In this document: piece by piece, positions 5,679-49,381 of the stretch
Layout: every line of letters starts with the position of its first letter
Numbering within the stretch: position 1 is the first letter of the stretch
DNA from: Burkholderia ubonensis
Lineage (GTDB): Bacteria; Pseudomonadota; Gammaproteobacteria; Burkholderiales; Burkholderiaceae
NCBI RefSeq assembly: GCF_001718695.1
Contig: NZ_CP013422.1
Coordinates: 1,550,001 to 1,614,000, forward strand
Length of the DNA stretch: 64,000 bases
Direction: 5' to 3'
Translations under genes and position numbers: made by a program
Notes under the pieces: generated by a model
What the model saw: the letters and a program-made list of their open reading frames with translations, nothing else
The model's database searches: none
Told to the model about the DNA's origin: nothing

Positions 5679-6584
5679 ATGTCCGATATTGCCTTGCATC
5701 AAGAAGCTGTCGCCCCAGAATTTCCATTGCCGTCAGGCGACCTGGCGTGCCGCGACGGCGCGCAGCGCCCCCGCCCGGTGCAGGTCGTCTGGTGCGACGA
5801 CGTGAAGCGCGGCGACGTCGAGCAGCCGCACGCGCCGCGGCTCGGCGTCGCGGACACGCTCGCGCACGCGCAGAGCACCGCCGAGCGCAATCGCATCGTG
5901 ACGAGCCTGCTGCACCTGACCGGCTTCTCGACGTTCGCGTACTTCGCGCTGGAATTCGCGCACGAGCGCGTCGAAAGCCTCTACCTTCACGAAGCGTTCA
6001 CGCCCGCGACCTATCGCGGCGACTACGTGCGGCACAGCCATCACGACGTCGATCCGCGCACGCTCGGCGCGCGCGTCTGCAACATGCCGATCGTGTGGGA
6101 CCTGCAGCAACTGCGCCGCCAGCACCGGCAACGCGTCGACGGCGCGAGCGTGCCGTCCGGCGCGCTCGACGGTTTCCTGCAGACGATGCAGGACGACGGG
6201 ATGTGCAGCGGGATCATGTATTCGATGGCCGTGCCCGGCACGCGGCTGCATGCGTTCATGAGCTTCACCGCGCCGCGCCGCACGCGCGAATGGATCACGC
6301 CGGCGACGGTCGAGCAGGCGCTGTCGATCGGGCTGTCGGTGCACAAGTTCGCATCGCCGCAGTTGATCGCGACGTCGCGCGAACGCACGGTCAACGGCCT
6401 CACGCCGTTCGAGCAGGAACTGCTGATCGGCATCGCCGAAGGCGCGTCGGACAAGGAGATCGGCCGGCGCCTCGACACCAGCGCGCACAACGTCGACTAT
6501 CACTTGCGCAAGCTGCGCAAGCGCTTCGGCGTCGCGAACCGGATCCAGCTCACCTACCTGACGTCGAAGCTCGAACTGATCTGA
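5679..6584 (+). CDS. LuxR-family transcriptional regulator, possible LuxR solo (B)
   Basis: 301 residues from the ATG at 5679, chosen because GAGGGA sits about 9 bases upstream; an in-frame ATG at 5589 would add 30 residues but lacks a ribosome site. The C-terminal LuxR helix-turn-helix is GASDKEIGRRLDTSAHNVDY. The N-terminal domain keeps the Tyr, Asp-Pro (HDVDPRT), Trp (PIVWDL) and Gly (CSGIMYS) positions of signal-binding LuxR proteins. It is a paralogue of the divergent gene at 4557-5405, and the pair probably arose by duplication. The ligand is unknown and no synthase is nearby. Confidence 0.8.
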   Translation: MSDIALHQEAVAPEFPLPSGDLACRDGAQRPRPVQVVWCDDVKRGDVEQPHAPRLGVADTLAHAQSTAERNRIVTSLLHLTGFSTFAYFALEFAHERVESLYLHEAFTPATYRGDYVRHSHHDVDPRTLGARVCNMPIVWDLQQLRRQHRQRVDGASVPSGALDGFLQTMQDDGMCSGIMYSMAVPGTRLHAFMSFTAPRRTREWITPATVEQALSIGLSVHKFASPQLIATSRERTVNGLTPFEQELLIGIAEGASDKEIGRRLDTSAHNVDYHLRKLRKRFGVANRIQLTYLTSKLELI

Positions 6585-6597
6585 GCCGGATGCGGCG

Positions 6598-8244
6598 TTA
6601 CCTGAGCAGCATCATCTGCACGACCTTGACGATCACGAGGCCGACCGCGATCACGAGGTAGCCGCGCAGCACGCCCATCCAGATCCGCGTCGACAGCGTC
6701 ATCACCTGCGGCTCGAGCGTGTCGAGCGGCGGCATGCGCCACGTGTCGCGCAGCGAGCGGTCGACGCCCGGCTCGATCACGCGCTTGTTGCGGCGGATCA
6801 GCACCGTCGCGAGGTAGCCGGCGATCGCGAACACGGTGCCGCCCACCAGCACGTCGACGATCGCGTCGCCGCTGATGTCCGGATACATCACCGACGCGGT
6901 CAGGATGATCGACAGCAGCACCAGCACCCAGATCACCGCGCTGGTGAAGATGTTGAGCTTCGTCGAGTTGACCCACGGCCCGAGCACCTGCCTGTCGTTG
7001 CAGAGCAGCAGCAGGAACACGGTCGCGCTCGGCAGCAGCACGCCCGCGAGCGTCTGCACCGCCTCCGTCAGCAGTCCGAGCGGGCTGCCCGGGATCAGCA
7101 CCAGCGTCGCCGCGGCCGCGACGATGCCGAAGTAGACGAGATAGAAGCCCTTCGCGTCCGACACGTTGCGGTGCAGCGAGTGGCGGATCTTGAACACGTC
7201 GCCGATCGCGTACGCGGTCGACAGCGACACCGCCGCCGCGCCGATGATGCACGCATCGAGCAGCGCGACCGCGAACAGCGTCGCGCTCGTGCGGCCGGCA
7301 TACTTCTCGAGGCCGGCGATGACGCCGCCCGCGTCGGTGAAGTTGCCGAACTCCGGATGCCCGCCGAACAGCGCGGCGCTGAAGCCGATCATCGCGACCG
7401 CGCCGATCAGCACGAACACGATGCCGATCCACAGGTCGGCCTTCTCGTACTTCATGAAGCGCGGCGTGATGCGCTTGTCGATCACGTAGCTCTGCTGGAA
7501 GAACAACTGCCACGGCGCGACCGTCGTGCCGACGACGCCGATCACGAGCAGCATCACGTCGGACAGCTTCGCGTGCGCGGGCCAGGCCGGCACGAAGAGG
7601 TCGCGCGACATCTGCGCGACCGGCGGATGGATCGTCACGAGCACCGGCACGAGCAGCAGGCTCATCACGCACAGCACCACCGCGAAGCGCTCGAAGCGCC
7701 TGAAATCGCCGGTGCTGACCGCCGCCATCGTCAGCGCGGCGGCCACGCACACGCCGGCGACCTTCGGCAGCCCGAAGAAGTCGAGCACGAACGTGATGCC
7801 GATGAATTCGGTGACGATCGTCAGCGCGTTGAGCAGGAACAGGTCGATCACGCTGAACGCGCCCCAGAACTTGCCGAAGCGCTCGAAGATCAGCCGCGCA
7901 TGGCCGACGCCCGTCACCGCGCCGAGCCGCAGCACCATTTCCTGGTTCACGTACAGCACGGGCACGAGCAGCAGCAGCGTCCACAGCAGCGTCGTGCCGT
8001 AGTTCTGCCCGGCCTGGGTATAGGTGCCGAATGCGCCCGCGTCGTTGTCGCCGACCATCACGATCAGGCCCGGCCCGATGATCGCGAGCAGCGTGCGCAG
8101 GCGCGCCCGCCACGTGCCCCGCGGCGCGGTGTCGTGATGCGCGATCGTCCCGAACGCGCCGCGGATGTCGCCCAGATGGGCGTCGTCGAGCACGGCGCCG
8201 CGCTCGACGGCGATCGGTGGAGAAACGTTGGATGGCGTGGACAT
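6598..8244 (-). CDS. Divergent NRAMP-family divalent metal transporter
   Basis: 548 residues with about 11-12 membrane segments and the NRAMP fold (IGPGLIVMVG in TM1). The canonical metal-site motifs are altered. TM1 reads DNDA (residues 66-69) in place of DPGN, and TM6 reads TTVAPWQLFFQQ where MntH has an M-P-H motif, so the soft-metal-ligating Met is absent. Known NRAMP-related magnesium transporters also lack this Met, so the substrate may be Mg2+ or another ion and not Mn2+; this is inference. Start at 8244 (MSTPSNVSPP), with only a weak GGA upstream. A small ORF lies 103 bases upstream on the same strand. Confidence 0.85.
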   Translation of the reverse strand: MSTPSNVSPPIAVERGAVLDDAHLGDIRGAFGTIAHHDTAPRGTWRARLRTLLAIIGPGLIVMVGDNDAGAFGTYTQAGQNYGTTLLWTLLLLVPVLYVNQEMVLRLGAVTGVGHARLIFERFGKFWGAFSVIDLFLLNALTIVTEFIGITFVLDFFGLPKVAGVCVAAALTMAAVSTGDFRRFERFAVVLCVMSLLLVPVLVTIHPPVAQMSRDLFVPAWPAHAKLSDVMLLVIGVVGTTVAPWQLFFQQSYVIDKRITPRFMKYEKADLWIGIVFVLIGAVAMIGFSAALFGGHPEFGNFTDAGGVIAGLEKYAGRTSATLFAVALLDACIIGAAAVSLSTAYAIGDVFKIRHSLHRNVSDAKGFYLVYFGIVAAAATLVLIPGSPLGLLTEAVQTLAGVLLPSATVFLLLLCNDRQVLGPWVNSTKLNIFTSAVIWVLVLLSIILTASVMYPDISGDAIVDVLVGGTVFAIAGYLATVLIRRNKRVIEPGVDRSLRDTWRMPPLDTLEPQVMTLSTRIWMGVLRGYLVIAVGLVIVKVVQMMLLR

Positions 8245-8347
8245 GATGTGTTCCGTACGGCAGATGTGTTTGGCCAAGCGCGTGGCCTTGGCATACGCGC
8301 GCGGAGCGGCCGCCGCGCGCATGCCGAGGCTTGCTCGGTGCTGCGAT

Positions 8348-8485
8348 TCAGTGGAACAGCGACTTCAAGCGGGAGATGAAGCGCGAGAACACCCGCGGGC
8401 GGGCGTCGAGTGTCAGCATCGCGTCGTAGTGACGGCGCGATTCCGTGACGTGCGGAAGGTTCGACAGCAGAAGGCCGAAGTTCAT
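8348..8485 (-). CDS. Small 45-residue ORF upstream of the NRAMP gene
   Basis: Begins MNFGLLLSNLPHVTES and ends SRLKSLFH. GGAG stands 8 bases before the ATG, and most third codon positions are G or C, as in real genes here. The tail is basic and amphipathic, with no clear membrane span. It could be a leader peptide for the transporter, a small protein acting with it, or a chance frame. I do not recognise a family. Confidence 0.45.
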   Translation of the reverse strand: MNFGLLLSNLPHVTESRRHYDAMLTLDARPRVFSRFISRLKSLFH

Positions 8486-9250
8486 GGTCTGGCTCCGTGC
8501 GGCGGCAGCGTGCGTGCCGGCCGCGTCATGGGCGCGGGGCCAGTCCGGGGCTGAACGATGCGTCAGGCTAGTCGGCCGGAAAGTCCCTGCGATCCCGGTT
8601 CAATTGGGTCGGTGGGTGCAACGGGCATAAGGGACAACTGTCACTGTCGTTCACGGCGGCTCCTGTTCAGTGTTCCGGAAGAACACGGTTGACCGCCGCG
8701 CGGCGCGCGGACCGTCGTTCGGGCGCAGGCGAAACGCATGCGCGAACGCGGCCGCGCAACGGGCGGCGGCGAAACCGGAATGCGGATGCGCGAACGCATC
8801 ACGCCGACCGGCGCGAATCGGGGTGCACGTAGGGAGTTGCTGCGAAATACTGCTGCGCGCACCGTTTGCCTCAGTGACAAACGGCGGCGTGGGAAAGGCG
8901 CGGACGTCGGTCGCTCAGGCGGAAAACTCGTTCGAAAGTCGACTACTGCAAGCGTCCAAGGCATTCGCCCCAAGGGTGAAGATGGCGGATTTTATGGACC
9001 GCCCGAAACCGAAGTCAACCCCTGGAAACGCCATTTCCCGAAATAATTTTCGCGGCCGCCGACGCTGAAAGATTTGCGCTCGACATCACGCGGCGCAACC
9101 TTTCAGCGCGGCGCGGCGCGGCGTTGCGCCGATGCGCGCGAACAACGGTGCAACGCCCGCCGGGGCACGCTTTGACGCGCTGCGTCGCGCCGCCGCCAGG
9201 GGCTCGTCAGCGCGCATCGGCGCGCCGCGACCGCAGCTTTCATGCGATTT
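8486..9250. other. Gene-poor gap of about 760 bases
   Basis: Open frames exist on both strands but are arginine- and alanine-rich shadow types with no recognisable domain or ribosome site. The only clear structure is the stem-loop at 9063-9108. It probably carries promoters for the NRAMP unit (minus) and the porin leader (plus). Confidence 0.5.
9063..9108. other. Long two-part stem-loop
   Basis: CGCTGAAAG (9063-9071) pairs with CTTTCAGCG (9100-9108), and inside it TTGCGC (9074-9079) pairs with GCGCAA (9093-9098), leaving a 13-base loop. That is 15 base pairs with one small internal bulge. No T-run follows on either strand, so it is not a standard terminator. Confidence 0.6.
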
Positions 9251-9254
9251 TTGC

Positions 9255-9284
9255 TTGCACCGCAGCAAAAATCGCGACTACAAT
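9255..9284 (+). promoter_or_regulatory. Strong sigma-70-like promoter
   Basis: TTGCAC, 18-base spacer, TACAAT. It faces the leader ORF at 9314, the small membrane ORF at 9564 and the porin gene at 9921. Confidence 0.6.
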
Positions 9285-9313
9285 CCGCCGCAATTCAACA
9301 CAGGAGTCCCTCC

Positions 9314-9376
9314 GTGGACACATGCCCCAGTTGCAGCTCGATGCCGGTTCAAGCCGGCCAAGCCATCGCGAGATAG
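9314..9376 (+). CDS. Possible 20-residue leader peptide (GTG start)
   Basis: A GTG preceded by AGGAG at a good distance opens a frame beginning with Met-Asp-Thr-Cys-Pro and ending QAIAR before a TAG. It lies about 25 bases downstream of the predicted transcription start. A hairpin (GCCGG/CCGGC) lies inside it, and a second 8-bp hairpin follows at 9437-9456, an arrangement seen in attenuators. It may also be chance. Confidence 0.3.
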   Translation: MDTCPSCSSMPVQAGQAIAR

Positions 9377-9436
9377 CAGCTCAGGCATGTCCTTCGCCGC
9401 TAGCTCGCATTCGTCGGGTTTAGCGCGCTTCCTTCC

Positions 9437-9456
9437 GAACCGGCCATCGCCGGTTC
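9437..9456 (+). other. Perfect 8-bp hairpin in the porin leader
   Basis: GAACCGGC, 4-base loop CATC, GCCGGTTC. No U-run follows. It may pause transcription or protect the mRNA. Confidence 0.45.
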
Positions 9457-9563
9457 GTCCGTCGCACGCTCCGTCAAGTTTCAAACGCCGATCGCAGGCC
9501 GCGTGCCGCGCCCGCGCTCGGTCACGCCGTCCGGCATGCGCCGGTGCGGCCGGAGGCAGCGTC

Positions 9564-9833
9564 ATGGTCGTTCAATCGTTTTCACTCAGACTCAAGCGAT
9601 GCTTGCAGGCAGGACGCACGCGCTGTGCGCTCCGCAGGCGCTCGCCGCTTGCGCGGGCACGCCGCCACCGGCGCGACGCCGCACGCGTGCAGCTGCGTGC
9701 CGCGTGGCGCGCGCTCGATTGCGCGCTGCTCGCCGCGATGGCCGCGGCCGTCGCGCTCGGCGCGCTGCTCTGCTCGAGCGCATCGCGAGTCGGCTTCGCG
9801 CAGGTCTGGCGCGTCGGCGGCTGGCTGCCGTAG
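9564..9833 (+). CDS. Small arginine-rich single-span membrane protein, unknown function
   Basis: 89 residues from an ATG with GGAGG 10 bases upstream. A basic N-terminal half is followed by one hydrophobic span (CALLAAMAAAVALGALLCSS) and a short tail. It ends 87 bases before the porin gene on the same strand, so they may share a transcript. I recognise no family. The good ribosome site and membrane span argue for a real gene; the Arg/Ala-rich composition also fits a shadow frame. Confidence 0.4.
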   Translation: MVVQSFSLRLKRCLQAGRTRCALRRRSPLARARRHRRDAARVQLRAAWRALDCALLAAMAAAVALGALLCSSASRVGFAQVWRVGGWLP

Positions 9834-9920
9834 GGCGTTGCCGCGCGCGCTTCGCGACGCGCGCCGCACTGCAATCCTTCTTCGTCAATCTCACTGATCG
9901 GACCGCCACACGGAAATCAC

Positions 9921-36674: not shown

Positions 36675-37277
36675 AATTAGCACGCCGATTTCATGCGGGC
36701 AAGGGGGCGAGCGTGGGGAGGTAAGTCGGTCCGTGTACCGTCCGACGAACCAAATGTCGCCGATTTAGGGCTCTGGTGGCCGAATCGGACATTCGGCAAC
36801 ATTGAGGGACATTCGGCTGGCAGCGCGCGGTGCGCACCAGGCGACCCGTGATATACATCCGAACGCCCGTCGCGAGGGCTTCCCAGCGCGCAACCACCGC
36901 CTCGACTGGAGCGCGTCTGATTTAATCAGCACAACGCGGCACGCCGCGTTCGCTGGCTGCAATTAAAGTCCACCCACTCTTGCGCGCACGGCGCGAAAGT
37001 TCGCCCGATGATGCCGCCGTGGATGCACCACTTTGCGGCGCCTCAGGCTCGCACACTTCGCAACCGACATGCGATGCAACCGGCGTTATCGACACCGGCA
37101 GTAATCCCCGCCATCGAATCGCGTCTGTACGCACACCAAGAAACTCCTGCCGATGTCGAGAGAATTACAACTGTGAGCCACCCCACTGATCCGGATGACT
37201 TTCCTCGAGACTGTCGAAGGCGCCATTGGCTGGTACCGCCCGAACAACGTCCAGGTGTCGACATCGCTTCCGCGCGG
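36675..37277. other. Non-coding region at the start of a lower-GC segment
   Basis: About 600 bases with no supportable gene. It includes GCCGAAT-CGGAC-ATTCGGC (36779-36797) and a direct repeat GGACATTCGGC at 36787 and 36807 (20-base period). Base composition falls below that of the flanking operons from here to about 41.6 kb, suggesting acquired DNA. Confidence 0.5.
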
Positions 37278-37466
37278 TTAGGCCGCCACGTAACGATCGG
37301 CGCGGGTTCCGTACTACCGGGATGCGAGATTGGCGAAGGTGCCTCCGTCGAGGCCATGTCCCGCGTGACTCAATCTCCTGCGCCTTGGGGTACACATGAC
37401 GGCGTGCCTGCCCTGCTCATCAAGAAAAGCCGTCGCAGCACCTCCCGACAATGGAGACCGAATTGA
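37278..37466 (+). pseudogene. 3' remnant of a hexapeptide-repeat (LbetaH) acyltransferase
   Basis: In frame: VTIGAGSVLPGCEIGEGASV, AMSRVTQS, then GVPALLIKKSRR, the end of a left-handed beta-helix acetyltransferase of the polysaccharide-modifying type. Upstream codons have no family similarity, so the N-terminal domain is lost. An intrinsic terminator still follows 100 bases on. Confidence 0.65.
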
Positions 37467-37600: not shown

Positions 37601-38067
37601 AAACGGGCGGCGGCAAGTGCCAACGCCCGCACGGAAAAGTAAAAACATGACGCAATCGAAAACCAAAGCGAAATGCTCGCGCTCGAGTATCTGAAGCTGA
37701 CCGTCACGACCGTGATTCATCCTCTGGTATCGTTGATGACCTCCAAGGCAGAATACCGTCGATATTCTCGAGGCTGGGGCGTACCGCGGCCTTCCGTGCC
37801 GCAATCCGTCTGTTTGCGTCGCAACGGAATGCCGGAGGCGGCGCGATCGAAGCAGGCAAGCCATGCGATCGTTGAACGAGTCCGCCGCTGGCACGGGCGT
37901 TATGCGGTAGTGACACTTGGCGGGCGTCACATGAGACGGTGTATTCAACGTACGCGCCCACGTCGCAGCGCCGGAATGGCCCGCCAGCTATCGGAATCGA
38001 CGACGAAACTTCAACCCTGCACTAAGCAGTCCGCTGTAGGCAACCCTGTGAAACGGAACCGAGTTGC
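37601..38067. other. Non-coding region before the sensor kinase
   Basis: About 470 bases with no recognisable gene; the short frames here lack domains and ribosome sites. It should contain the promoter of the kinase gene, but I see no convincing match. Confidence 0.45.
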
Positions 38068-39471
38068 ATGTATTCGATCTTGCCGGCGTTTGTGTCCGCC
38101 CTCTTTCTCGGATTTGGTGTCTATGTATGGCTGACCGAGGGCGTGACCCGACGATCGACGCCCTTCGTGCTGATGTGCATGACCACCTTCGTCTGGCAGG
38201 GGACGTGGGCCTTTCTGTTTCAGACCAGCCAGCCGGACGTTGCCCGCGTGCTGGCCAAGGTCGGCTATCTGTTCATCATGTTCCTGCCGACGACGTTCTA
38301 TCACTTTGTAACGGCAACCGTTGCCCGGCGAAACGAACGCCCGCTGCTGCTGGCGTCATATGCCATCAGCGCGGTGCTGGCGGTACTGCTGCTCACCGGC
38401 AACGAGGTCGTCGACGGCGTTCGTCAATTTGCTTTCGGAGATTATCCCCGCGCCGGGCGTCTGCATCCCGTGCACGTCGTGCAAACGATCGTCCTCGCCG
38501 GTCGCAGCGGCTGGCTCCTGGTCACCGCGCGCCGTCGGGCGGCTCGCGGCCGGGACGAGCGCAAGCTCCTCGATCTCTGCCTGCTGAGCCTCGGGCTGTA
38601 TTCGCTCGCGGCCATCGACTACGCCGTGAATTACGGCTACCCGTTTTATCCGCCGGGCGTCGTCTTCATCGCGCTCAGCCTCGGCATCCTCGCTGTGACG
38701 ATCGTTCGCTATCGGCTGATGCGGCCGTTCCTGGTCGCGGCGACGGTAGCGCATGAAGTGACCACCCCGCTTGCGACGATCGGCATGTATGTGGCAGAAA
38801 TCGACCGAGCGCTGCCGGCCCTGCTACGTGGATATCAGCTCGCCGTGACGCATCGGCTCGTGGATGGCGATTTGGACACCGAGCAGCTCGAGCGACTTCC
38901 GGCGCTGCCCGCTGCGATACGCCACCAGGTCGACAGCACGCATGCGATGGTCAAAATGTCGCTGGCGATGTTTACGCTGGACAGCGTCGATCGCCAAAGC
39001 TTCTCGACTCATTCGATCGGGCGCTGCATCGACGTTGCGCTCGATTGCTATCCTTTTTCCGCCGGGGAACGCGAGCGTGTCGACGTCGCGCCGATCGACC
39101 CGCGGCTGCAGTACTTCGGGTCCGATTCGCTGATGCTTTTCGTCGTGTTCAACCTGCTGAAAAACGCGCTGCACGCAACGACGGGCGGCACAACGGGCAG
39201 GATCGAGATCCTCGCCGAGCGAGACGACGGTTCTTGCGTGCTCCAGATTCGAGATACCGGTACCGGCATCGACGCCAATGTTCTGCCTCACATCTTCGAT
39301 CCGTTCTATTCCACGAAGTCGCACGGCCGCGGCGCTGGCCTTGGGCTGGCGTATTGCCGTCGAGTCTGCGAGATGTTCGGCGGTCAGATTTCGTGCGAGT
39401 CGGTGCCGGGCGTCATGACGACCTTCACGATTCGCTTGCCTGAGGCCGGGTCACCTGCGTCGCGCAGGTGA
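38068..39471 (+). CDS. 7-TM sensor histidine kinase
   Basis: 467 residues. Seven hydrophobic segments fill residues 2-215, with short loops and no periplasmic sensor domain, so the signal is probably sensed in or at the membrane. H-box AHEVTTPLATI (His229), then a long helical region, N-box NLLKNALHA (about 362-370), G1 DTGTGID (396), F-box FDPFYSTKSHG and G2 GAGLGLAYC. No PAS, HAMP or receiver domain. The architecture resembles CqsS/LqsS/PhcS-type quorum-sensing kinases, a resemblance only. It is followed by a hotdog thioesterase (opposite strand) and a response regulator, its likely partners. Confidence 0.82.
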   Translation: MYSILPAFVSALFLGFGVYVWLTEGVTRRSTPFVLMCMTTFVWQGTWAFLFQTSQPDVARVLAKVGYLFIMFLPTTFYHFVTATVARRNERPLLLASYAISAVLAVLLLTGNEVVDGVRQFAFGDYPRAGRLHPVHVVQTIVLAGRSGWLLVTARRRAARGRDERKLLDLCLLSLGLYSLAAIDYAVNYGYPFYPPGVVFIALSLGILAVTIVRYRLMRPFLVAATVAHEVTTPLATIGMYVAEIDRALPALLRGYQLAVTHRLVDGDLDTEQLERLPALPAAIRHQVDSTHAMVKMSLAMFTLDSVDRQSFSTHSIGRCIDVALDCYPFSAGERERVDVAPIDPRLQYFGSDSLMLFVVFNLLKNALHATTGGTTGRIEILAERDDGSCVLQIRDTGTGIDANVLPHIFDPFYSTKSHGRGAGLGLAYCRRVCEMFGGQISCESVPGVMTTFTIRLPEAGSPASRR

Positions 39472-39528
39472 CCGGCGTGCCGATACGGCGCCCGCCCGGC
39501 ACTGGCGCGCCGGGCGGGACGACACAGC

Positions 39529-40026
39529 TTAGCTTTCGAGCGACGGCAGGTTCAGTTCATATTCCTTGACCCGCTCGATGATGCCGGCCGGGAAGCGGCG
39601 GATCCGCTTGTCGGTTCCCGCGAAGAGGATCTGCTGGTATCCCAGCGAAACCGTGCGTTCGTCGACGCAGAAGCGGAACACCAGATAGGCCGAGCACTGC
39701 CGCACCTGCAGCGTATTGAGGTAGCAATCGACGCGCTGAAACGGGAACGTCTCCTGGACGTACTCCTGGTGCGCACGTTTCGTGACGAACGTGCCGCCGG
39801 AAGCCAGCAGATTGTTGTGAATGCACTCGTGGAACCAGCGCTCACGACATACGCCCTGCCACTCGAAATAGCGTGCGAAATACGTGTTCATGAATGCATT
39901 GGAATCTTTCAGATAAATGTCGATCACGTGATGGAACGTCTTGTGAGGCGCAGCCGTGTTTAATTCCGACGACAGCAGCTCCGGGTTATTGAGCAGGATT
40001 TGAGGGATTGCGTTTCGCGTCAACAT
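39529..40026 (-). CDS. Hotdog-fold acyl thioesterase (4HBT type)
   Basis: 165 residues from ATG 40026. The 4HBT-type signature is DSNAFMNTYFARYFEWQG, with Asp41 as the probable catalytic base, followed by the central helix and beta strands (AYLVFRFCVDERTVSLGYQQ). Length suits a single hotdog domain. No signal peptide; cytoplasmic. It lies between a sensor kinase and a response regulator and is divergent from the latter, so it may make, trim or destroy an acyl signal. The acyl carrier or CoA substrate is unknown. Confidence 0.72.
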   Translation of the reverse strand: MLTRNAIPQILLNNPELLSSELNTAAPHKTFHHVIDIYLKDSNAFMNTYFARYFEWQGVCRERWFHECIHNNLLASGGTFVTKRAHQEYVQETFPFQRVDCYLNTLQVRQCSAYLVFRFCVDERTVSLGYQQILFAGTDKRIRRFPAGIIERVKEYELNLPSLES

Positions 40027-40090
40027 GGATTTTTTTCCAGAAGAACGACTGCAAGCGGCAGCAACGCACGCCTTCGGCATGAGGGCGTGT

Positions 40091-40140
40091 CCCATTTTGG
40101 ATTTGCCCTATTTTTGTTGGTCGTACCCGGACAAAATGGG
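40091..40140. promoter_or_regulatory. Inverted repeat between thioesterase and response-regulator genes
   Basis: CCCATTTTG (40091-40099) and CAAAATGGG (40132-40140), perfect 9-base arms 32 bases apart, about three helical turns. It lies in the middle of the 224-base divergent gap and may bind a regulator of both genes. Confidence 0.5.
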
Positions 40141-40250
40141 CTGCAGTTGCCGGTCGCCTTTGAGATGTCCGATAATCTGACGCTGGTGCGCGGCGCCATA
40201 TCCCGATGCGGGATGGCTCGCTCGTTTAATTCACGTTTCTCGGATCAGCT

Positions 40251-41237
40251 ATGCGTCGCTTTGTCAGGCAGCCGGTGTTCTATCCCGTGTCCACGGTATT
40301 TGTCGACGATCATCCGGGCTTCCTCGACGCGCTACGTGGAACCTATCGGAACGGGCCTCTGAACCGCTTTTTCAGCTCACCGCGCGAAGCATTGAACTTC
40401 CTGACATCGCAACACCGTCGCGGCACGCCCGAGCGGCTATCGGGATCGCAATTTTCCGATTTTGAAAAGCGCAGCTTCAATGCCTTGGGGCTCGATGCGC
40501 TGACCGACGTGACGCGATTCGACGAAGTGGCCGCCGTCGTTGCCGACTACGAGATGGACGAAATGAACGGCGTCGAGGTTTTCGCGGCCTTGGCCGACAT
40601 GCCGTGTACGAAGATCTTGCTGACGGGCGTGGCGACGGAGCGGGAAGCCGTTGAGGCGTTCAACGCCGGCGTCATCGACCTGTACGTGAAGAAGTCCGCG
40701 CCGGACATGACGGAGAAGCTGACCCGCGCGCTGACGGAGGCGAAGGCACGCCACTGTGCCGAGCGAGGAATGATCAGCGCCAACGACGTCGGATCCACGT
40801 ACTGCGACGCGAGAGCGCTGGCGGTGATGCAGACCATCGTCGAGCGGGAACGGATCGTGGAATATTACTGGCGTCTCGATCAGAACGCCGTGCTGATGTT
40901 CGACGCCAGTGGTCAGCCGAGTGTTTTTCTCGTGTGGGACGCCGACGAATGGGCATTCCAGTGCGGCATCGTGGCAGATGAAGGCGACATTTCCCCACTG
41001 CGCCGGGAAATGGAAGCCCGTCGCATCATGCCGTTGTATTGGCCATTTCAGGCCTACCGCGCGGGCATGATGGGGGTTCCGTCAATCCGGCCGCTGCCCG
41101 TTCCCGGATGGGATGGCGCGTTCTACGGCTGGAGTCGACTCGAGTCTGCGGTGCTCGAGCCGAACATGTCGACGTACGCACGCTGGCGCAAGGCGCAGAT
41201 GAACAGCGATCACCGCCCTGACTCTTTTGCGATTTAG
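40251..41237 (+). CDS. Response regulator with unusual receiver and unknown output domain
   Basis: 328 residues. Receiver domain: acidic pair Asp19-Asp20 (VFVDDHPG), phospho-acceptor Asp99 (VVADYEMDEMNG), Thr125 (ILLTGV) and Lys147/148 (LYVKKS). The acidic pair and acceptor Asp are about 79 residues apart, against about 45 normally, so there is an insertion of about 30 residues at 60-90. Residues 170-328 are rich in Trp, Tyr and Pro (EYYWRLDQNAVLMFD, PLYWPFQAYRAGMMG) and contain no helix-turn-helix, GGDEF, HD-GYP or kinase that I can see. LqsR/PhcQ-like regulators are the nearest idea, unproven. The partner is probably the kinase at 38068. Confidence 0.78.
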   Translation: MRRFVRQPVFYPVSTVFVDDHPGFLDALRGTYRNGPLNRFFSSPREALNFLTSQHRRGTPERLSGSQFSDFEKRSFNALGLDALTDVTRFDEVAAVVADYEMDEMNGVEVFAALADMPCTKILLTGVATEREAVEAFNAGVIDLYVKKSAPDMTEKLTRALTEAKARHCAERGMISANDVGSTYCDARALAVMQTIVERERIVEYYWRLDQNAVLMFDASGQPSVFLVWDADEWAFQCGIVADEGDISPLRREMEARRIMPLYWPFQAYRAGMMGVPSIRPLPVPGWDGAFYGWSRLESAVLEPNMSTYARWRKAQMNSDHRPDSFAI

Positions 41238-41247
41238 TTTCAACGCG

Positions 41248-41278
41248 CCAGCCTGGCGTAAGCACGGCTGGTACTTTT
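41248..41278 (+). terminator. Terminator after the response regulator
   Basis: CCAGCC, 12-base loop, GGCTGG, then TACTTTT. Confidence 0.5.
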
Positions 41279-41589
41279 AGACACCGGTTTTGAAGAAGCA
41301 ATCGATCGAATCGCGCCGAATGCGCATCTTCATACGAACGACTACTCACGACACCGGCAATTTATTGGTGGCCCTCGGAATAGGGACGACGATTAAAACA
41401 AAATATTAATGGAATTGAAACTGACACTTTTGACAGGGTCGTTGCGATTCCTTGGCGGACAAAGGGGTTGTTCAGCTTCGCCGGCGGCGGATCATAAAGG
41501 CCGCCGTTGATTTCGGGGATGCGGCCATTTTCTTGGACTGATTTACGTCGTTAGGCCGAGCAACCGGCCGCCACCGATGCCACCCTTCG
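41279..41589. other. Non-coding junction between the lower-GC segment and the mhp operon
   Basis: 311 bases, no gene. It contains an AT-rich stretch near 41390-41410 and a CGGCGGC/GCCGCCG hairpin (41482-41506) that may end mhp transcripts. Confidence 0.4.
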
Positions 41590-42456
41590 TTATCGGCGCA
41601 GGAACTCGAGCACCATCCGGTTGAAGCGCTCCGCGTGCTCCCATTGCGCCCAGTGCCCGCAGCGCCCGAACACGTGCAGATCGGCGTTCGGCATATTCCA
41701 GACGAGCCGCAGCCCGACATCCATCGGCACGAACCGGTCGTCGCGGCCCCAAATCACGAGCGCGGGCGCCTTGATCTCGCTCAGCCGGTGACCGTAATCC
41801 GGAAACTGCTTCGGATTGGCCGTCAGACTTTTCACGAAATTCTCCAGATGATCGCGCCGTCCGAGCATGTTCTCGAGCCGCGTCTGCATCAGCTCTTCCG
41901 TCATCGTGCTCGCATCGTAGACGAACACGTTGAGCATCTTCTTCAGGTTCTCGAGCGTCGGGTCGCGATACAGCGCTTGAAGCAGCTTGATGCCTTCGGT
42001 CGGCATCGGCACGAACTGGCTCGGACCGCCCGTGCCGCCGCCCATCAGCACCAGCTTGCCGACCCGCTCGGGATACGACAGCGCGAAGGCCACCGCGCTA
42101 TGCCCGCCCATCGAGTTGCCGACGAGATGCGCGCGCCCGATGCCGAGCGTATCCAGCACGCCCGCCAGCACGCGCGCGTTGAGGTCGGAGCGCGAGCCCG
42201 TACAGACGATCGAATCGCTCTTGCCCCAGCCGGGGCAGTCGACGAGGATCACGCGATAACCCGCGTTCGCGAATGCGTCCACGTTGCGATGGAAGTTCGC
42301 CCAGCCGGTCGCGCCCGGCCCCGAGCCGTGCAGCAGAACGAGCGCTTCGTTGCCGGTGCCCGTGTCGTTGTAGTGCACGCGCAGTTCCGTGCCGTCTTCC
42401 ACCACGTTCACGTACTTGCTGGTCGCGCTTTCGGTATGAATCACAGTGTCAGTCAT
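41590..42456 (-). CDS. mhpC: 2-hydroxy-6-oxonona-2,4-dienedioate hydrolase
   Basis: 288 residues, alpha/beta hydrolase of the meta-cleavage type. [12 protein letters not shown] (oxyanion), nucleophile Ser in [11 protein letters not shown], Asp in [11 protein letters not shown] and His in [12 protein letters not shown]. It splits the ring-fission product into 2-hydroxypentadienoate and succinate. AAGGA precedes the ATG. Last gene of the operon, 14 bases after mhpT. Confidence 0.93.
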
Positions 42457-42470
42457 GTCGATGTCCTTCG

Positions 42471-43724
42471 TCAGATCGATTCGGTTCCAAGGGTGTGCGA
42501 GCCGTTGACCGACTCGCGCGGAGATTTCGCGACTGCGGTGAGCGCACCGAGCGCCGCGATGACGATGAGCGGAATGCTCGAGATCACGAGCAGCGACGCG
42601 CTCTGGCCCAACGCCAGCAGTTGCCCGGCGATCAGCGGGCCGATCATCGAACCCATGCGGCCGACGGCCACCGCTGCGCCGACGCCCGTGCCCCGCACCC
42701 GCGTCGGATACGTCGCGCCGGCGAGCGCATACAGCACCGACTGCGTGCCGACGAGAAACAGGCCGGCCAGCAGGCCGCCCCATGCCATCGACACGCTCCC
42801 CGTCGCACCGGCGAGCGCCAGCAACGCAAGCGCGATGCCGGCATACATGCCGACCACGACCGGCCGCTTGCCGATGCGATCCGACAGCCCCGCGATCACG
42901 ATCGCGCCGATGCCGCCGCCGATGTTGAACATCATCTGCACGACGCTCGCCTGGACCGGCGTGAGGCCGCGCGAGAGCACCATCGACGGCAGCCAGTTCA
43001 TCAGGAAATACAGCACGATCAGCGTCCCCAGGTAGCTGATCCACAGGGCGATGGTCGTCCCCGCGCGTCCGTCGCTGAAGAGCGCGCGCACGATGCCGTC
43101 CTTCGACGCGCGGCTCGCACCCTGGCTCGCCGCGGCGAATTGCGTCGACTCCTTCAAGCACAGCGCCAGCAGCGGCAAGGTCAGCAGCGGCCCGATCCCG
43201 CCGACATAGAAGATCTGCCGCCAGCCCTCGGCGCCCGGGCTGACGATGCCGATCACGGCCGCGAGCGCCGCGCCGAAAGGCATGCCGCAGTACATTGCGC
43301 CGACCGCCGTGCTGCGCTGTCGGGGCGGCGCTGCCTCCGCGCACAACGCGATCAGGTTCGGCATCGCCGCGCCGAGGCCGAGGCCCGTGAGAAAGCGCGC
43401 GACGAGCAGGCTCTGCAGATCCCACACCTGGGTCGTTGCAATCGAAAATATCCCGAACAGCGCGACGGACATCATCAGCACGCGCTTGCGGCCGATGCGA
43501 TCGGCGAGCCTGCCGCCAAGCGCCGCGCCCGGCAACAAGCCGAGCGCGCCGATACCGAATGCCCAGCCGAGTTGCGCCACCGCGAGATGAAACTCGCGTG
43601 CCATGCGCGGCGCAGCGATGCCCGTGGATTGCAGATCGAGCCCTTCGAGGAGCGCGACCGCGAGGCACAGGCCGATGGTGATGGCGCCGCCGACGCGCGG
43701 GGGGGAAGCCGTTGACGTGTTCAT
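42471..43724 (-). CDS. mhpT: MFS permease for hydroxyphenylpropionate (AAHS family)
   Basis: 417 residues with 12 membrane segments; TM1 carries the Asp of the aromatic acid:H+ symporters ([15 protein letters not shown]) and the loop motif [14 protein letters not shown]. Position inside the mhp operon supports uptake of 3-(3-hydroxyphenyl)propionate or a related acid. GGAG before the ATG. Confidence 0.85.
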
Positions 43725-43782
43725 TGTTGTCTCCAGGTTGAACGATGCAGCGCTCTTCGTGGCGCCTGGCATATCGGATGGT

Positions 43783-44802
43783 TCAGGCGCGTGCTTCGCG
43801 CTTCTTCAGATCGAGCGCGACGTCGACGATCATGTCTTCCTGACCGCCCACCATGCGTCGCTTGCCCAGTTCGACGAGAATGTCGACGGCTTTCAGGCCG
43901 TATTTCTTCGCCGCGATTTCGGCATGCCGCAGAAAGCTCGAATACACCCCCGCATAGCCGAGCGCGAGCGTTTCGCGGTCGACCCGCACCGGCCGGTCCT
44001 GCAACGGGCGCACGATGTCGTCGGCCGCGTCGAGCAGCCGATAGAGATCGGTGCCGTGGTGCCAGCCAAGGCGCTCGGCCGCCGCGATGAACACTTCGAG
44101 CGGCGCGTTGCCCGCTCCCGCGCCCATGCCCGCCAGGCTCGCATCGATGCGATCGCAACCTTCCTCGACCGCCGCGATCGAGTTGGCGACGCCGAGGCTC
44201 AGGTTGTGATGGGCATGCATGCCCGTCTGGGTCTCCGGGCGAAGCGCTGCCTTGAGCGCCCGGAAGCGCGCGCGGATGTCGTGCATGTTCATCGCGCCGC
44301 CGGAATCCACCACGTACACGCAGGTCGCGCCATAGCTTTCCATCTTCTTCGCTTCGATCGCGAGATGGTCGGGCGTCGTCATGTGACTCATCATCAGGAA
44401 GCCGACGGTATCCATGCCGAGGCTGCGTGCGTATTCGATGTGCTGCTTCGAAATGTCCGCTTCCGTGCAATGGGTTGCGACACGGACGACACGCGCACCC
44501 GCGTCGTACGCGGCCTTCAGGTCATGAATCGTGCCGATGCCGGGCAACAGCAGCGTCGCGATTTGCGCGTGCTTCACCACCTCGGCTACCGCCTCGATCC
44601 ATTCCAGATCGCTGTGCGCGCCAAAGCCATAGTTGAAGCTCGAACCCTGCAGGCCATCGCCGTGTGCGACCTCGATGCTGTCGACCTTCGCCTCGTCGAG
44701 CGCGCGGGCGATGTCCTGCACGTTCTGAATCGAATACTGATGACGGATCGCGTGCATGCCGTCGCGCAGCGTCACATCGGAAATGTAGAGTTTCTTGTCC
44801 AT
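43783..44802 (-). CDS. mhpE: 4-hydroxy-2-oxovalerate aldolase
   Basis: 339 residues, DRE-TIM metallolyase. [14 protein letters not shown] near the N-terminus, metal His pair in [11 protein letters not shown]. It makes pyruvate and acetaldehyde and channels the latter to MhpF, encoded just upstream (18-base gap). AAGGAG upstream. Confidence 0.95.
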
Positions 44803-44820
44803 GATCGAGTGCTCCTTGCG

Positions 44821-45768
44821 TCAGGCGTTCACGAGCGACGCGGCCATGCGCTCGGCCGTTGCCAGCGCGGCGGACGTCATGATGTCGAGATTGCCGGCGT
44901 AGGCCGGCAGATAATGCGCCGCGCCTTCCACTTCGACGAAGATCGAAGTCTTGAGTCCGCTGAAACGGCCGAGTCCGGGGATATGCAACGGCGCAGCGGC
45001 GGGGATGTCGTCGAACTGCACGGACTGTTTCAGCCGATAGCCGGGCACATAGGCCTGGACCGCAGCGGCCATCTCGCTGACCGACGCTTCGATCAGCGCG
45101 CGGTCCGCCGCTTCGGACAGCAGATACACCGTGTCGCGCATCATGAGCGGCGGCTCGGCCGGATTGAGCACGATGATCGCCTTGCCCTTGCCGGCACCGC
45201 CGACCGCTTCGAGCGCCTTCGACGTCGTCTCCGTGAACTCGTCGATGTTGGCGCGCGTGCCCGGCCCTGCCGACTTGCTGCTGATCGACGCGACGATCTC
45301 CGCGTAATGCACCTTTGCGACGCGCGACACCGCGGCGACCATCGGGATCGTCGCCTGCCCGCCGCAGGTGACCATGTTCACGTTCGGCGCATCGAGATGC
45401 GCGTCGAGATTCACCACCGGCACGCAGTACGGGCCGATGGCAGCGGGCGTCAGGTCGATCATCCGAATGCCGGGCTTGAGCGCGCGCAGGAACGCGTCGT
45501 TCTTCACATGTGCGCCGGCCGACGTCGCATCGAACACGAAGTCGATCTCGTCGAACACGGGCAGGCGCGCGAGCCCTTCCACGCCTTCATGCGTCGTCGC
45601 CACGCCGAGCCTCGCGGCGCGCGCGAGGCCGTCCGAGGCCGGATCGATGCCGACCGTCGCGGCGATTTCGAGGTGCTTGCCGCTGCGCATGATCTTGATC
45701 ATGAGGTCGGTGCCGATGTTGCCGGAGCCGATGATCGCGGCCTTGCACCGGGTGTTGTCTGTTGCCAT
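44821..45768 (-). CDS. mhpF: Acetaldehyde dehydrogenase (acylating)
   Basis: 315 residues. NAD motif [13 protein letters not shown] and catalytic Cys in [13 protein letters not shown]. Converts acetaldehyde and CoA to acetyl-CoA in complex with the MhpE aldolase. GGAGAC before the ATG. Confidence 0.95.
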
Positions 45769-45785
45769 GGGAATGTCTCCGTCCG

Positions 45786-46574
45786 TCATTCGGTGAAAGT
45801 GGCGCGCACGCTGCCGAGCCCGTCGATGTGCGCCGCATAGGTGCCGGCCGCCTTCACTGCGACCATCGGGCCAAGCGCGCCCGTCAGCACGACGTCGCCC
45901 GCACGCAGCGGCGTGCCGAGTCGGACCATCCGGTCCGCGAGCCACGCGGCCGCATTCAGCGGATTGCCGAGGCACGCAGCGCCGTTGCCGCGCGACAGGA
46001 CTTCGCCGTCCTGCGCGAGCGTCATCGCGCACGCGGTCAGATCGATGTCGCGCAGCAGGACCGGCCGGCTGCCGAGCACGAACAGCGCGCTCGATGCGTT
46101 GTCCGCGACGGTGTCGAAAAAGCGGATGTCCCAGTCGCGGATGCGACTGTCGACGACCTCGATCGCGGCCACGGCATACGCGGTCGCGGAGATGAGGTCC
46201 GCGAACGTGTGTTTTTCTGCGGTCAGGTCGCGTTCGAGCACGAGCGCGATCTCCGCTTCGACCTTCGGCTGGATCAACGACGCAAGCGGCATCGGCTCGC
46301 CGTCGCCGTACGCCATCGACGCGAACAACGCACCGAAGTCCGGCTGATCGACGCCGAGCTGCTTCTGCACCGCAGGCGAAGTCAGGCCGATCTTCCTGCC
46401 GACGACACGCTCGCCGTTGGTCTTGCGCAAGTCGTTGTTGATCTGCTGGATCGCATAGGCGAGCGTCGCGTCGCCTCCCGGACACGTATCGCGCAGCGGT
46501 GCGATCGTCCGGCCCGACGCCTGTGCTTCACGCAGGCGCGCGGCCATCGAAGCAATGCTGTTGTCATCCGACAT
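45786..46574 (-). CDS. mhpD: 2-keto-4-pentenoate hydratase
   Basis: 262 residues, fumarylacetoacetase-like fold with the metal-ligating Glu pair in [16 protein letters not shown] and the closing GLGSVRATF segment. Hydrates 2-hydroxypenta-2,4-dienoate to 4-hydroxy-2-oxovalerate. AGGAGA upstream; 17 bases before mhpF and 4 bases after mhpB. Confidence 0.93.
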
Positions 46575-46578
46575 GGTT

Positions 46579-47532
46579 CTATCTCCTGGAAAGGGTCCGC
46601 TCTCGCGCGTGCATCGCGCCGAAACCCGCGATCCATTCGGGAATCGCGCGGTAGTAATCGATCGACGCCGCGTACGGGCCGCTCGCCGCAAGTGCGCCGA
46701 ATGCGGCGACCCACGTGCGGATCTCGTGCGCGGACTTGCCCGCATCGCGCGTGATCGCTTCGTTCGTGAGGCCATCGGCGGCGGTGAGGTCACCGCGTTC
46801 GAGCAATTCGAGGAACCTGCGATCCCATGCGGGATTGAGCGGATGCAGGCGGCTGTCGCCCGCTGCGAACGCCCTGGCCGCCGCGACGGTGCTGGATTGC
46901 CGCGCATCGCGCGACGCGGGCGACGGGTTGCGGCCCGCGATCAACCGTTCCGCGACGACGTCGTCCGCGCCGGCGATTTCCGGCACGGGCGGCTCATGCG
47001 AGATGCCGCCCGAGCCGATCACCAACACGCGCCGGTTCATGCGCGCGACGGCACGGCCGATCGCGTCGCCCAGCAGGCGCGCGCGGCGGCACGACGCCAT
47101 CGGCGGCGCAACCGAGTTGATGAAGACGGGTACCACCGGAAAGCGGTCGATGCGGCCCGTGAGTACCTCGAGCGCCTGGGCGCAGCCGTGATCGACCTGC
47201 ATCCGATACGACACGGCGACGTCGATATCGCTCGCGAGCGCCGCATCGGCGAGCGCGAGCGCCGCATCGCGCGCGACGGGCAACGGGCCGGCCGCGCTGC
47301 CGAAATCGCCGACGGCCGTCGCGCTTGCGCCGATGCAGAACTGCGGCATCACGTCGTAAAAGAAGCCGTTGTAGTGATCCGGCGCGAACACGATCACCAG
47401 CTCCGGATCGAACGCGTCGACCCGCTCGCGCGCCGCGCGCTGCACGCGCTCGACTTCCGAGACGACTGCCGGCGCGGGATCGAAATAGCCGTGCAGCGGC
47501 GTGTGCGACATGCATTCGAGATGGATCGGCAT
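46579..47532 (-). CDS. mhpB: 2,3-dihydroxyphenylpropionate 1,2-dioxygenase
   Basis: 317 residues, class III (LigB-type) extradiol dioxygenase. Fe ligand region FAPDHYNGFFYDV and IGSGGISHEPPVPE are characteristic. Opens the catechol ring at the meta position. It ends 4 bases before mhpD and starts 1 base after the mhpA stop. Confidence 0.94.
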   Translation of the reverse strand: MPIHLECMSHTPLHGYFDPAPAVVSEVERVQRAARERVDAFDPELVIVFAPDHYNGFFYDVMPQFCIGASATAVGDFGSAAGPLPVARDAALALADAALASDIDVAVSYRMQVDHGCAQALEVLTGRIDRFPVVPVFINSVAPPMASCRRARLLGDAIGRAVARMNRRVLVIGSGGISHEPPVPEIAGADDVVAERLIAGRNPSPASRDARQSSTVAAARAFAAGDSRLHPLNPAWDRRFLELLERGDLTAADGLTNEAITRDAGKSAHEIRTWVAAFGALAASGPYAASIDYYRAIPEWIAGFGAMHARERTLSRR

Positions 47533-47533
47533 C

Positions 47534-49381
47534 TCAGGCTCCCACCAGGCCTGCGGCCGGCGCGAACGTCGCGTCGTCGGCCTGCGCGCCCGTTGCCACG
47601 GAAAGCGACAGCCGTTGGGCGAGCTGCGACACGCATTCCGATACGCATTGCGGCGAGCACATGCCTGCCACGAAGCGGTCCGGCCGCAACAGCACGACCG
47701 ACTCCGGCACCCGCGCGAACCAGTCGCGCAGGCGCGAGTCGACATCGCCGATCGCGATCACGTCTGCGGGTACGTCGTCGCGGAAGCCGAGCTGCGGGTC
47801 GGGCTTCGCGAGCACGAAGCATCCGCCGAGCGCGCTCCAGATGCGGCGCGCCTCGGGCGTCAGGCCGAAGGTCGGGTCCGTGCCCCAGCTCAGGATCGCG
47901 AAGCGGTTGCCGATCGCATCGTCGAGCCGGACGATGCTGCCATCCGCGACACGCACGCGCGGCTGGATGAACATGCGGCCCACTGGCGTCCCCGCCTGCG
48001 CATCGCGGCCGTGCACGATCCGTCCGAGCAACGATTCACGCTTCTCGCTCATCAGACCGACCAGCCTCCCGAACGCGCCGTGCCCCCGGCTGGCGATCAG
48101 CCGCGCGAGCATGCCTTCGGACCGCGCGCGTCGTGCCAGCAGCACGACGCCGTCTTCATAGCGCGGCATCGGCTTGAAACGCATCTCGACGAAGTAGCGC
48201 TTCAGGGACGGCAGCACGTCGAAGCAGCGCACGAACGCGTCGCGCACGCGCGTTCCGACGAAGCTCGTCGGCGCGAAGATGTCGCCGGCCACTTCCGACA
48301 GGTGGATCATCGAGCGCGCGTGGGCGCGCCGCTCCATCGTGTAGGTATCGAGCAGCGCGTCGCGCGCCGCGCCCTTCACGACCATCGCGAGCTTCCAGCC
48401 GAGATTGCTCGCGTCGCGAATCCCGCTGTTGTAACCCTGCCCCTGCCACACGGGCATGATGTGGGCGGCGTCGCCCGCGAGCAGGATGCGCTTCACGCGG
48501 AACACGCTCGCGAGCCGCGCGTTGTGCGTATAGACCCGCTGGCGGATGTAGTCGACCTTGTCAGGATCGTCGACCACCCCGCGCACCAGCGCCGCCATGT
48601 TCTCCGGCTTCGACAGCTCCTCCTCCGTCTCGCCCGGCATCACCATGAATTCGAAGCGCCGGATGCCGTGCGGCAGCGCCGCCGACACGTAGGGCCGCCG
48701 CGCGTCGCAATGCAGATAGACATGCGGAGAGCCGATCGGATCGTTGCGCACGTCGATCACGATCCATTGATTCGGCTTCGTGCGCCCTTCGAACGGCACG
48801 TCGAGCGTGCGGCGCACGAAGCTGTTGCCGCCGTCCGCGCCGACCATGTATGCGGCGCGGATCGTCGTGCGCACGCCGTGCGCATCGGTCGCGTCGATGG
48901 TCACGCCGCTTTCGTCCTGCGCGAAGCGGTCGACGTTGTGGCCGAGCAGCGTCGACACATGGTCGAAACGCTCGAGACCGCGGTACAGGATCTGATCGGC
49001 GAGCGGCTGGATGAAGGCGTTGCGGCGCGGCCAGCCGAACTCGTCGGTGCGCGGCTCGATCGACGCGAAGCACTTCCCATTCAGCGTGAAACGCATCCAG
49101 TGATTCGGCGTGGTGTGCGGCAGCAGCGCCTCTGCGAGGCCGACCGACTGGAATACGCGCAGTGCTTCGTCGTCGAGCCCGATGGCGCGCGGATAGTCGA
49201 TGATCTGCGTGAGCTTCTCGACAACGACGACGCGCACGCCCTGCAGGCCGAGGATGTTCGCGATCATCAGGCCGACCGGGCCAGCACCGATGATCGCGAC
49301 ATCGGCGTCGATCGAGCGATGTGTCGTTTCGTGAGGATGAGCGCGGCCGAGGCCGGCCGCCGGTTCAAAAGCGGGGCGCAT
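47534..49381 (-). CDS. mhpA: 3-(3-hydroxyphenyl)propionate hydroxylase
   Basis: 615 residues, flavoprotein aromatic hydroxylase. GxGxxG motif [15 protein letters not shown] at about residue 30, second FAD motif [18 protein letters not shown], and a C-terminal thioredoxin-like domain giving the extra length. Hydroxylates 3-hydroxyphenylpropionate with NADH and O2. First gene of the mhpABDFETC operon, divergent from mhpR. Confidence 0.94.

Follow-up and report, generated by a model that had tools for sequence, protein, structure and literature searches.

What do three neighboring genes of Burkholderia ubonensis, encoding a membrane-embedded histidine kinase, a hotdog thioesterase and a response regulator, do together? 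They lie at positions 38,068 to 41,237 of a 64,000-nucleotide stretch of DNA (the window), which belongs to a 6.68 Mb genome whose closest named relatives are Burkholderia. An initial annotation had proposed that the thioesterase makes or removes an acyl signal that the kinase reads and passes to the regulator. Family matches and co-conservation confirm that the three genes are real and belong together. Judged from gene content across genomes, they are a real, patchily kept signaling module. We give an even chance to the reading that this module is a self-contained LqsR-type two-component system, of which the signal is made or tuned by the thioesterase. All three genes are intact; the kinase and thioesterase genes are convergent, and the thioesterase and regulator genes are divergent. 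The features are as follows.

38068..39471, plus strand: sensor histidine kinase, 467 aa, with HisKA_7TM (residues 8-218), the dimerization and histidine phosphotransfer (DHp) domain with H229, and HATPase (residues 358-460)
38752..38754, plus strand: codon of the predicted phospho-accepting His229, in the motif AHEVTTPL
39529..40026, minus strand: hotdog thioesterase, 165 aa, CalE7/DynE7/EspE7-like
40027..40250: control region of 224 bp between the divergent thioesterase and regulator genes, from sequence and comparison
40039..40101, minus strand: conserved element R1, a candidate structured leader, 12 nt ahead of the thioesterase start codon
40068..40088, minus strand: hairpin A of R1, a variable stem with compensatory changes (coordinates derived from the window's alignment row)
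40048..40062, minus strand: hairpin B of R1, the CGC loop of which matches GCG at 40065-40067 (coordinates from the alignment row)
40251..41237, plus strand: LqsR-family response regulator, 328 aa, with predicted phospho-accepting D99 (codon 40545-40547) and an LqsR-type output domain from about residue 170

We searched 299 genomes of the family, with E-value thresholds of 1e-25 for the thioesterase and 1e-5 for the kinase sensor domain (231 aa), and with the curated cut-off for LqsA. Regulators scoring at least 279 bits are called type I and those scoring 67 to 111 bits are other LqsR-family members; regulator counts are among the matches listed, and the remaining matches are weaker. The thioesterase was found in 69 genomes, the kinase sensor in 77, a type I regulator in 49 and LqsA over its cut-off in 56, counts that include weak or partial rows such as the kinase of G104 (102 residues and a stop) and the thioesterase of G242 (93 residues). 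All 69 thioesterase genomes possess the kinase, within 2.5 kb of the thioesterase gene in 68. Every kinase genome (77/77) has an LqsR-family regulator somewhere, and in all 46 genomes with both the kinase and a type I regulator the two are within 3.5 kb. The linked triple occurs in 42 genomes, 24 of which have no LqsA, and the window's genome likewise lacks it. Among 109 genomes with an LqsR-family regulator in the matches listed, only 7 are without both the kinase and LqsA. We also read named-genome loci, the best 80 of 205 regulator relatives, although some of these contigs end early. All three genes were present in 48 of them, in the order kinase-thioesterase-regulator in 29 and regulator-kinase-thioesterase in 19. 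In an order-wide sample of 300 genomes, the thioesterase was found in 3, each time with the kinase, and the kinase in 9, of which 5 are weak matches of 26-28%. Outside the family, one genome (G305) retains the kinase-thioesterase pair, with identities of 47% and 56%. In two loci (L087 and L181), the thioesterase is read only in fragments. Thus, the three genes, for which the initial annotation had taken co-conservation as decisive, are co-conserved, though some members of the family have no regulator next to the pair. Other arrangements were also seen. A third one may exist in Paraburkholderia silviterrae and P. oxyphila (L055 and L091, 4058-5242), where the 7-TM kinase and thioesterase are absent and an LqsS-like kinase (31-32%) is found some 3 kb from a type I LqsR-family regulator.

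The regulator had been described as carrying no recognizable known output domain. This description does not hold. When PDB sequences were searched with phmmer, the regulator matched 6sy9_A with an E-value of 2.3e-21 over residues 3-265, well into the output domain, and the next match had an E-value of 0.006. The PDB table labels this entry "Response regulator"; we take it to be the structure of Legionella LqsR. In a maximum-likelihood tree of 37 rows, 18 regulators of the window's kind fall on one side of a branch with support 100/100, and LqsA-linked and Ralstonia/Cupriavidus-type regulators fall outside this group. By these comparisons the regulator is a member of the LqsR family, with an output domain that is known in kind but unexplained in function. 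The insertion of about 30 residues in the receiver is real; however, it is not distinctive because LqsR has the same insertion. The phosphorylation residues are complete, as had been claimed: D19, D20, D99, T125 and K148 are invariant in 29 aligned rows, and D99 is conserved in 118 of 118 regulator matches. The Response_reg profile matched at 29.6 bits, slightly below its cut-off of 30.2. Among the first 76 of 111 regulator relatives, those named by organism are from Burkholderia, Paraburkholderia, Trinickia or Caballeronia. According to a 2012 review, the LqsR output region matches no known output domain (PMC3376566). A 2023 paper describes the LqsR structure as resembling the diguanylate cyclase domain of PleD, with a degenerate motif and no activity detected (PMC10653808); the structure paper itself is cited as reference 29 in PMC10692735.

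The kinase matched HisKA_7TM (Pfam PF16927) at 48.4 bits against a cut-off of 28.6, and HATPase_c was also matched. The AlphaFold2 model (predicted local distance difference test score [pLDDT] 78.5, predicted template modeling score 0.49) contains seven long membrane-type helices and a short beta hairpin. Seven membrane segments without a periplasmic sensor, as first described, are borne out by the HisKA_7TM match and by this model, which has no periplasmic domain. H229 and the N, G1, F and G2 boxes are all present, and among the matches in the loci the phospho-acceptor is His in 108 of 110 and Gln in 2. We compared the kinase with LqsS from a related genome (L139). This LqsS aligns with the kinase from residue 179 on, with 31% identity over 294 columns, and when it was searched against the window's genome, the kinase was the top of 19 matches with 117 bits, versus 45 for the next. 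In contrast, HisKA_7TM was absent from the LqsS of this relative in the profile search. Therefore, the proposed likeness to LqsS holds for the kinase core and fails for the sensor. Sequence comparison indicates that the kinase is a hybrid, in which a HisKA_7TM sensor is joined to an LqsS-like DHp/ATPase core. No Foldseek match to the 7-TM sensor was recognized in the best 50 rows, which are kinase cores or kinase-containing chains. A related layout was observed in a Ralstonia-type genome (L132, G144, 6300-9890), where one thioesterase gene is flanked by two related 7-TM kinases; G113 is alike.

The assignment of the enzyme as a 4HBT-type thioesterase was correct (4HBT_2, 38.6 bits), and relatives place its start at 40026, giving 165 aa, versus 40095 for the longer open reading frame. 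The closest protein by sequence is CalE7 (3e-8), followed by DynE7, EspE7 and SgcE10. In a Foldseek search with the model, a putative thioesterase from Ralstonia eutropha (3ck1) came first and CalE7 next, with YbgC-type enzymes lower. N43, Y53 and R61 are invariant in 27 aligned rows; R61 is aligned with R35 of EspE7, the residue changed in entry 9ccr, and an N...WQGxCRE segment is common to the thioesterase and the enediyne thioesterases. CalE7-type enzymes hydrolyze 3-oxoacyl chains and allow decarboxylation.

Where, then, would a signal come from? The reported absence of a CqsA/LqsA synthase from the window extends to the whole genome: NF005526 gave 2 matches, at 187 and 138 bits against a cut-off of 428, which we presume to be KBL and BioF from features of these enzymes. 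In one genome (G013, locus L141), lqsS-lqsR-lqsA directly adjoins regulator-thioesterase-kinase. Each half of this locus combines a kinase and an LqsR-type regulator with a single enzyme gene on the opposite strand. This parallel make-up suggests, by analogy, that the thioesterase may play the part of LqsA in the module.

Plasmids carry a further variant. Among 72,556 plasmid records, the kinase and the thioesterase were found in the same 11, adjacent in all 11, and no Ralstonia plasmid record was among the kinase matches. A type I regulator is present on just 2 of the 11, both from Burkholderia, and there the kinase histidine is retained. In all 8 Paraburkholderia records that have the pair without a regulator (L175, L176 and L178-L183), Gln replaces the phospho-histidine. 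These are megaplasmids of P. phymatum, P. caribensis, P. largidicola and their relatives. Gln occupies this position in 5 of 120 listed kinases. The regulator search on these species covered plasmid records rather than chromosomes. Because the histidine and the regulator are lost together, this pattern supports a pairing of kinase and regulator, and we consider that the two very probably do form a pair.

An element (R1) of about 65 nt, directly 5′ of the thioesterase start codon, is conserved in genomes ranging from Burkholderia to the Ralstonia type. RNAalifold with 63 sequences gave two hairpins with double changes at 9 of 11 pairs. In a sequence-only alignment of 59 elements, the R1 structure pairs in 83.7% of cells, versus 34-57% for slid versions. 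None of 500 shuffles matched R1 in cells paired or in covariation score, and 2 of 500 did so in the number of pair types. Pairing in hairpin B extends to 97.7% of cells, and 5 of its 6 pairs change on both sides. Its loop sequence, CGC, is matched by the preceding GCG in 99.4%; of the three pairs so formed, two are constant and one changes from C-G to U-A in 9 rows, all from Paraburkholderia, perhaps once. For hairpin A, the outer six pairs form in 80.2% and the inner two in 68.7% of cells; in a model-fitted alignment, which leans towards structure, these values were 87.9% and 69.3%, and the two hairpins alone reached 89.5%, versus 29-57% for slid versions. The window's own copy, folded alone, is not unusually stable (z -0.83), and five relatives gave -2.4 to -4.5. 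Therefore, the case for R1 rests on comparison. A closing helix, AGAAT/ATTCT, which would make a three-way junction, is not supported: it has no covariation and 312 of 500 shuffles pair as well. Its slid versions pair less (33-50% versus 67.9%), so the helix is still conceivable.

A covariance model of R1 gave 41 matches of at least 34 bits in 190 genomes, many of them sequences used to build it, and each lies immediately upstream of a thioesterase gene; the next match scored 27 bits. The thioesterase gene is present in 42 of the 190 (a set inferred from handles), and the single unmatched gene is at a contig end. Among thioesterase genomes without a row in the model, 15 of 16, Ralstonia- and Cupriavidus-type, were matched; in G166 the gene is 38 bases from the contig end. 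R1 was also matched in all 11 plasmid records, none of which was used for the model, although some are from the same species as used rows. Rfam 15 gave no match at E up to 1 in the window from 38000 to 41500, and in 4 other loci it gave 7 weak matches, none of them at R1. Thus, R1 is a candidate new RNA family, a gene-specific structured leader that probably acts as RNA on thioesterase expression. The R1 model had no match in G305, from another family; there an inverted repeat, GGCTG...CAGCC, was seen by eye upstream of the thioesterase (L162, 1930-2080). A sigma-54 promoter at the GGCTGC palindrome was considered and rejected, the spacing being one base off as judged by eye. We also looked for the JAI-1 motif, TTGAN6/7TCAA, in the 450 nt ahead of the thioesterase; none of 88 regions (a count with duplicates) contained it.

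In the reading of a self-contained LqsR-type module, the 7-TM kinase would use its membrane domain to bind a small lipophilic ligand and would control phosphorylation of the regulator, from H229 to D99. The regulator would dimerize and act via its LqsR output domain, probably without DNA binding. The CalE7-like thioesterase would detach this ligand, or a precursor of it, from an acyl carrier and so fill the place held by LqsA in lqs clusters, at a dose set by the structured leader on its own mRNA. Whether the thioesterase product is the kinase ligand is, we think, evenly balanced. The released product would most likely be a 3-oxo acid, able to decarboxylate to a methyl ketone and chemically near the Lqs hydroxyketones; this specific chemistry is doubtful. 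For comparison, a hotdog thioesterase of Sinorhizobium meliloti, SMc03960, forms the infochemical 2-tridecanone in vitro (PMC12794305). In its most far-reaching form, the proposal would be a thioesterase-built class of quorum sensing, with a 3-oxo acid or methyl ketone autoinducer, a HisKA_7TM receptor, an LqsR-family output and a leader RNA that closes the loop as a ligand- or product-responsive switch. We regard this form as improbable.

Several observations weigh against the reading proposed here. The sampled genomes are related and their counts are not independent. Among the named loci, 24 of 80 hold the regulator but neither this kinase nor the thioesterase, 6 lack the thioesterase alone, and 2 hold the regulator with a kinase fragment; the thioesterase is absent from 8 of the 77 kinase genomes, and in the Cupriavidus and Ralstonia loci that were read the regulator does not adjoin the kinase-thioesterase pair. 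A Cupriavidus plasmid keeps the histidine with no regulator on the record, and the histidine-less group consists of related species, perhaps reflecting a single event. Moreover, the thioesterase and leader are retained on all 11 plasmid records, the histidine-less ones included (the thioesterase is in pieces in one), which suggests that both keep a use without phosphotransfer; therefore, the enzyme would not be needed only for phosphotransfer. The substrate of the thioesterase cannot be read from its sequence, and residues 41-50 of its model, including N43, have pLDDT below 50. Deletion of the S. meliloti thioesterase caused no significant change in its ketones (PMC12794305). Finally, the R. 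solanacearum kinase Shk (RSp0220), which has seven predicted membrane segments and affects exopolysaccharide and virulence, is reported to bind RSc0040, and the main text of that report does not mention PhcX, the LqsR-family regulator of this species (PMC12993560). Shk may be the ortholog of the kinase, a likeness of description rather than of sequence comparison; if so, its RSc0040 partner speaks against a simple kinase-LqsR pairing.

The same observations can be read in other ways. The thioesterase might remove or edit the signal, hydrolyzing an acyl-CoA or acyl-acyl carrier protein ligand (or a precursor) and thereby resetting the kinase rather than feeding it. The 4HBT_2 family, in which relatives are named FadM-like or acyl-CoA thioesterase, includes broad hydrolases, and the kinase occurs without the thioesterase (8/77) while the thioesterase never occurs without the kinase (0/69). 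However, loss of a synthase in listeners would explain this asymmetry at least equally, and the closest solved structures by sequence are named as enediyne or polyene pathway enzymes; we consider signal removal unlikely. It is also conceivable that the kinase senses the state of the membrane or the intracellular supply of fatty acids, with the thioesterase as partner or target, so that the genes serve lipid homeostasis with no intercellular signal. The lack of a periplasmic domain in the kinase model would suit this, as would a neighboring cytosolic acyl hydrolase that is kept with its leader even beside a histidine-less kinase. Yet the kinase core and the regulator are of the quorum-sensing Lqs type and the module adjoins lqs genes in G013, and this explanation seems to us distinctly unlikely.

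A separate alternative concerns R1: instead of a folded RNA, it may consist of two palindromic DNA operators, to which perhaps the regulator binds. The two hairpins correspond to inverted repeats within a promoter region, and palindromic operator arms can co-change. The outer AGAAT is conserved while its proposed helix shows no covariation, and it could be a -10 element; the ordinary stability of the window's copy fits operators as well. In contrast, the stem sequence and loop length of hairpin A vary while pairing of its outer six pairs holds, the loop-junction match switches from C-G to U-A jointly in the 9 Paraburkholderia rows, and the element is retained where the record has no regulator. 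DNA operators thus have a low probability in our estimate.

How does the module relate to known systems? With the Legionella Lqs system (LqsA-LqsS/LqsT-LqsR) it shares the regulator family, including the receiver insertion and the phospho-Asp, the kinase core and a compact cluster (PMC3376566, PMC5289986). It differs in the absence of LqsA from the window's genome, in its HisKA_7TM sensor, in having a thioesterase with a structured leader, and in its regulator, which forms a separate group. We rejected filing the module as an Lqs system, since the genome has no synthase and the sensor is different. In the Jqs system of Janthinobacterium (JqsA-JqsS-JqsR), JqsR, which its authors liken to LqsR, adjoins a kinase in a betaproteobacterium (PMC3566124, PMC5080296); however, Jqs possesses the synthase JqsA, and its JAI-1 motif was not found upstream of the thioesterase here. 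PhcX of Ralstonia solanacearum belongs to the LqsR family and has neither LqsA nor LqsS with it; deletion of phcX changed about 16% of Ralstonia genes (PMC10653808). The main text of that paper contains none of the words "cognate", "orphan" and "thioesterase". In the Ralstonia-type genomes sampled, the kinase is present at another site, in most of them together with the thioesterase, whereas phcX is located by phcBSRQ. The enediyne thioesterases CalE7, DynE7, EspE7 and SgcE10 include the best sequence match and are among the best fold matches, but the window's enzyme, unlike them, is linked to a kinase. S. meliloti SMc03960 and tomato MKS2 are likewise hotdog thioesterases, and they produce methyl ketones or precursors of these (PMC12794305); SMc03960 is YbgC-like, and it is likened here by description, not by sequence comparison. 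A description of a thioesterase-kinase-LqsR module was not found in the open-access literature.

The surroundings of the module are as follows. The segment is of lower GC content, as the initial annotation had observed, with 0.58-0.62 in 37-42 kb versus 0.672 for the whole window, and its GC content at third codon positions (GC3) is 0.76-0.77 versus a median of 0.898 (46 called genes of more than 150 aa, from a crude gene caller). Low GC is not unique to the module: 56-64 kb has 0.61-0.63, and several called genes have lower GC3. The flanking "decayed gene" of the initial annotation may correspond to a 152-aa open reading frame at 37008-37463, with a single hexapeptide match of 27.6 bits against a cut-off of 27.0; possibly it is a remnant of an acyltransferase gene. 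For the called genes at 28-50.5 kb, matches above 70% identity occur solely in two loci of the near-identical G126. Downstream, at 41590-49381, is an apparent aromatic-acid degradation operon, with a hydrolase, transporter, aldolase, dehydrogenase, hydratase, ring-cleavage enzyme and hydroxylase (names from reading translations). On reading through the window's called genes we noticed no polyketide synthase; no search was aimed at it.

In Legionella, growth phase and virulence are under the control of LqsR-family regulators (PMC5289986), as is virulence in Ralstonia (PMC10653808). Many genomes hold such a regulator without LqsA, and the module offers them a sensor and a candidate signal enzyme: a non-type-I LqsR-family regulator without LqsA was found in 24 genomes of the family, among the matches listed, of which 19 have the kinase and 17 the thioesterase. 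What appears to be new here, as far as comparison can tell, is a structured leader tied to one gene and not in Rfam, a thioesterase in place of LqsA and a swapped sensor. With R1 comes a candidate new RNA family, the pairs of which lend themselves to direct testing, and the kinases that lost their histidine amount to a natural experiment. If the reading as thioesterase-based quorum sensing is true, PhcX of Ralstonia would gain its missing sensor.

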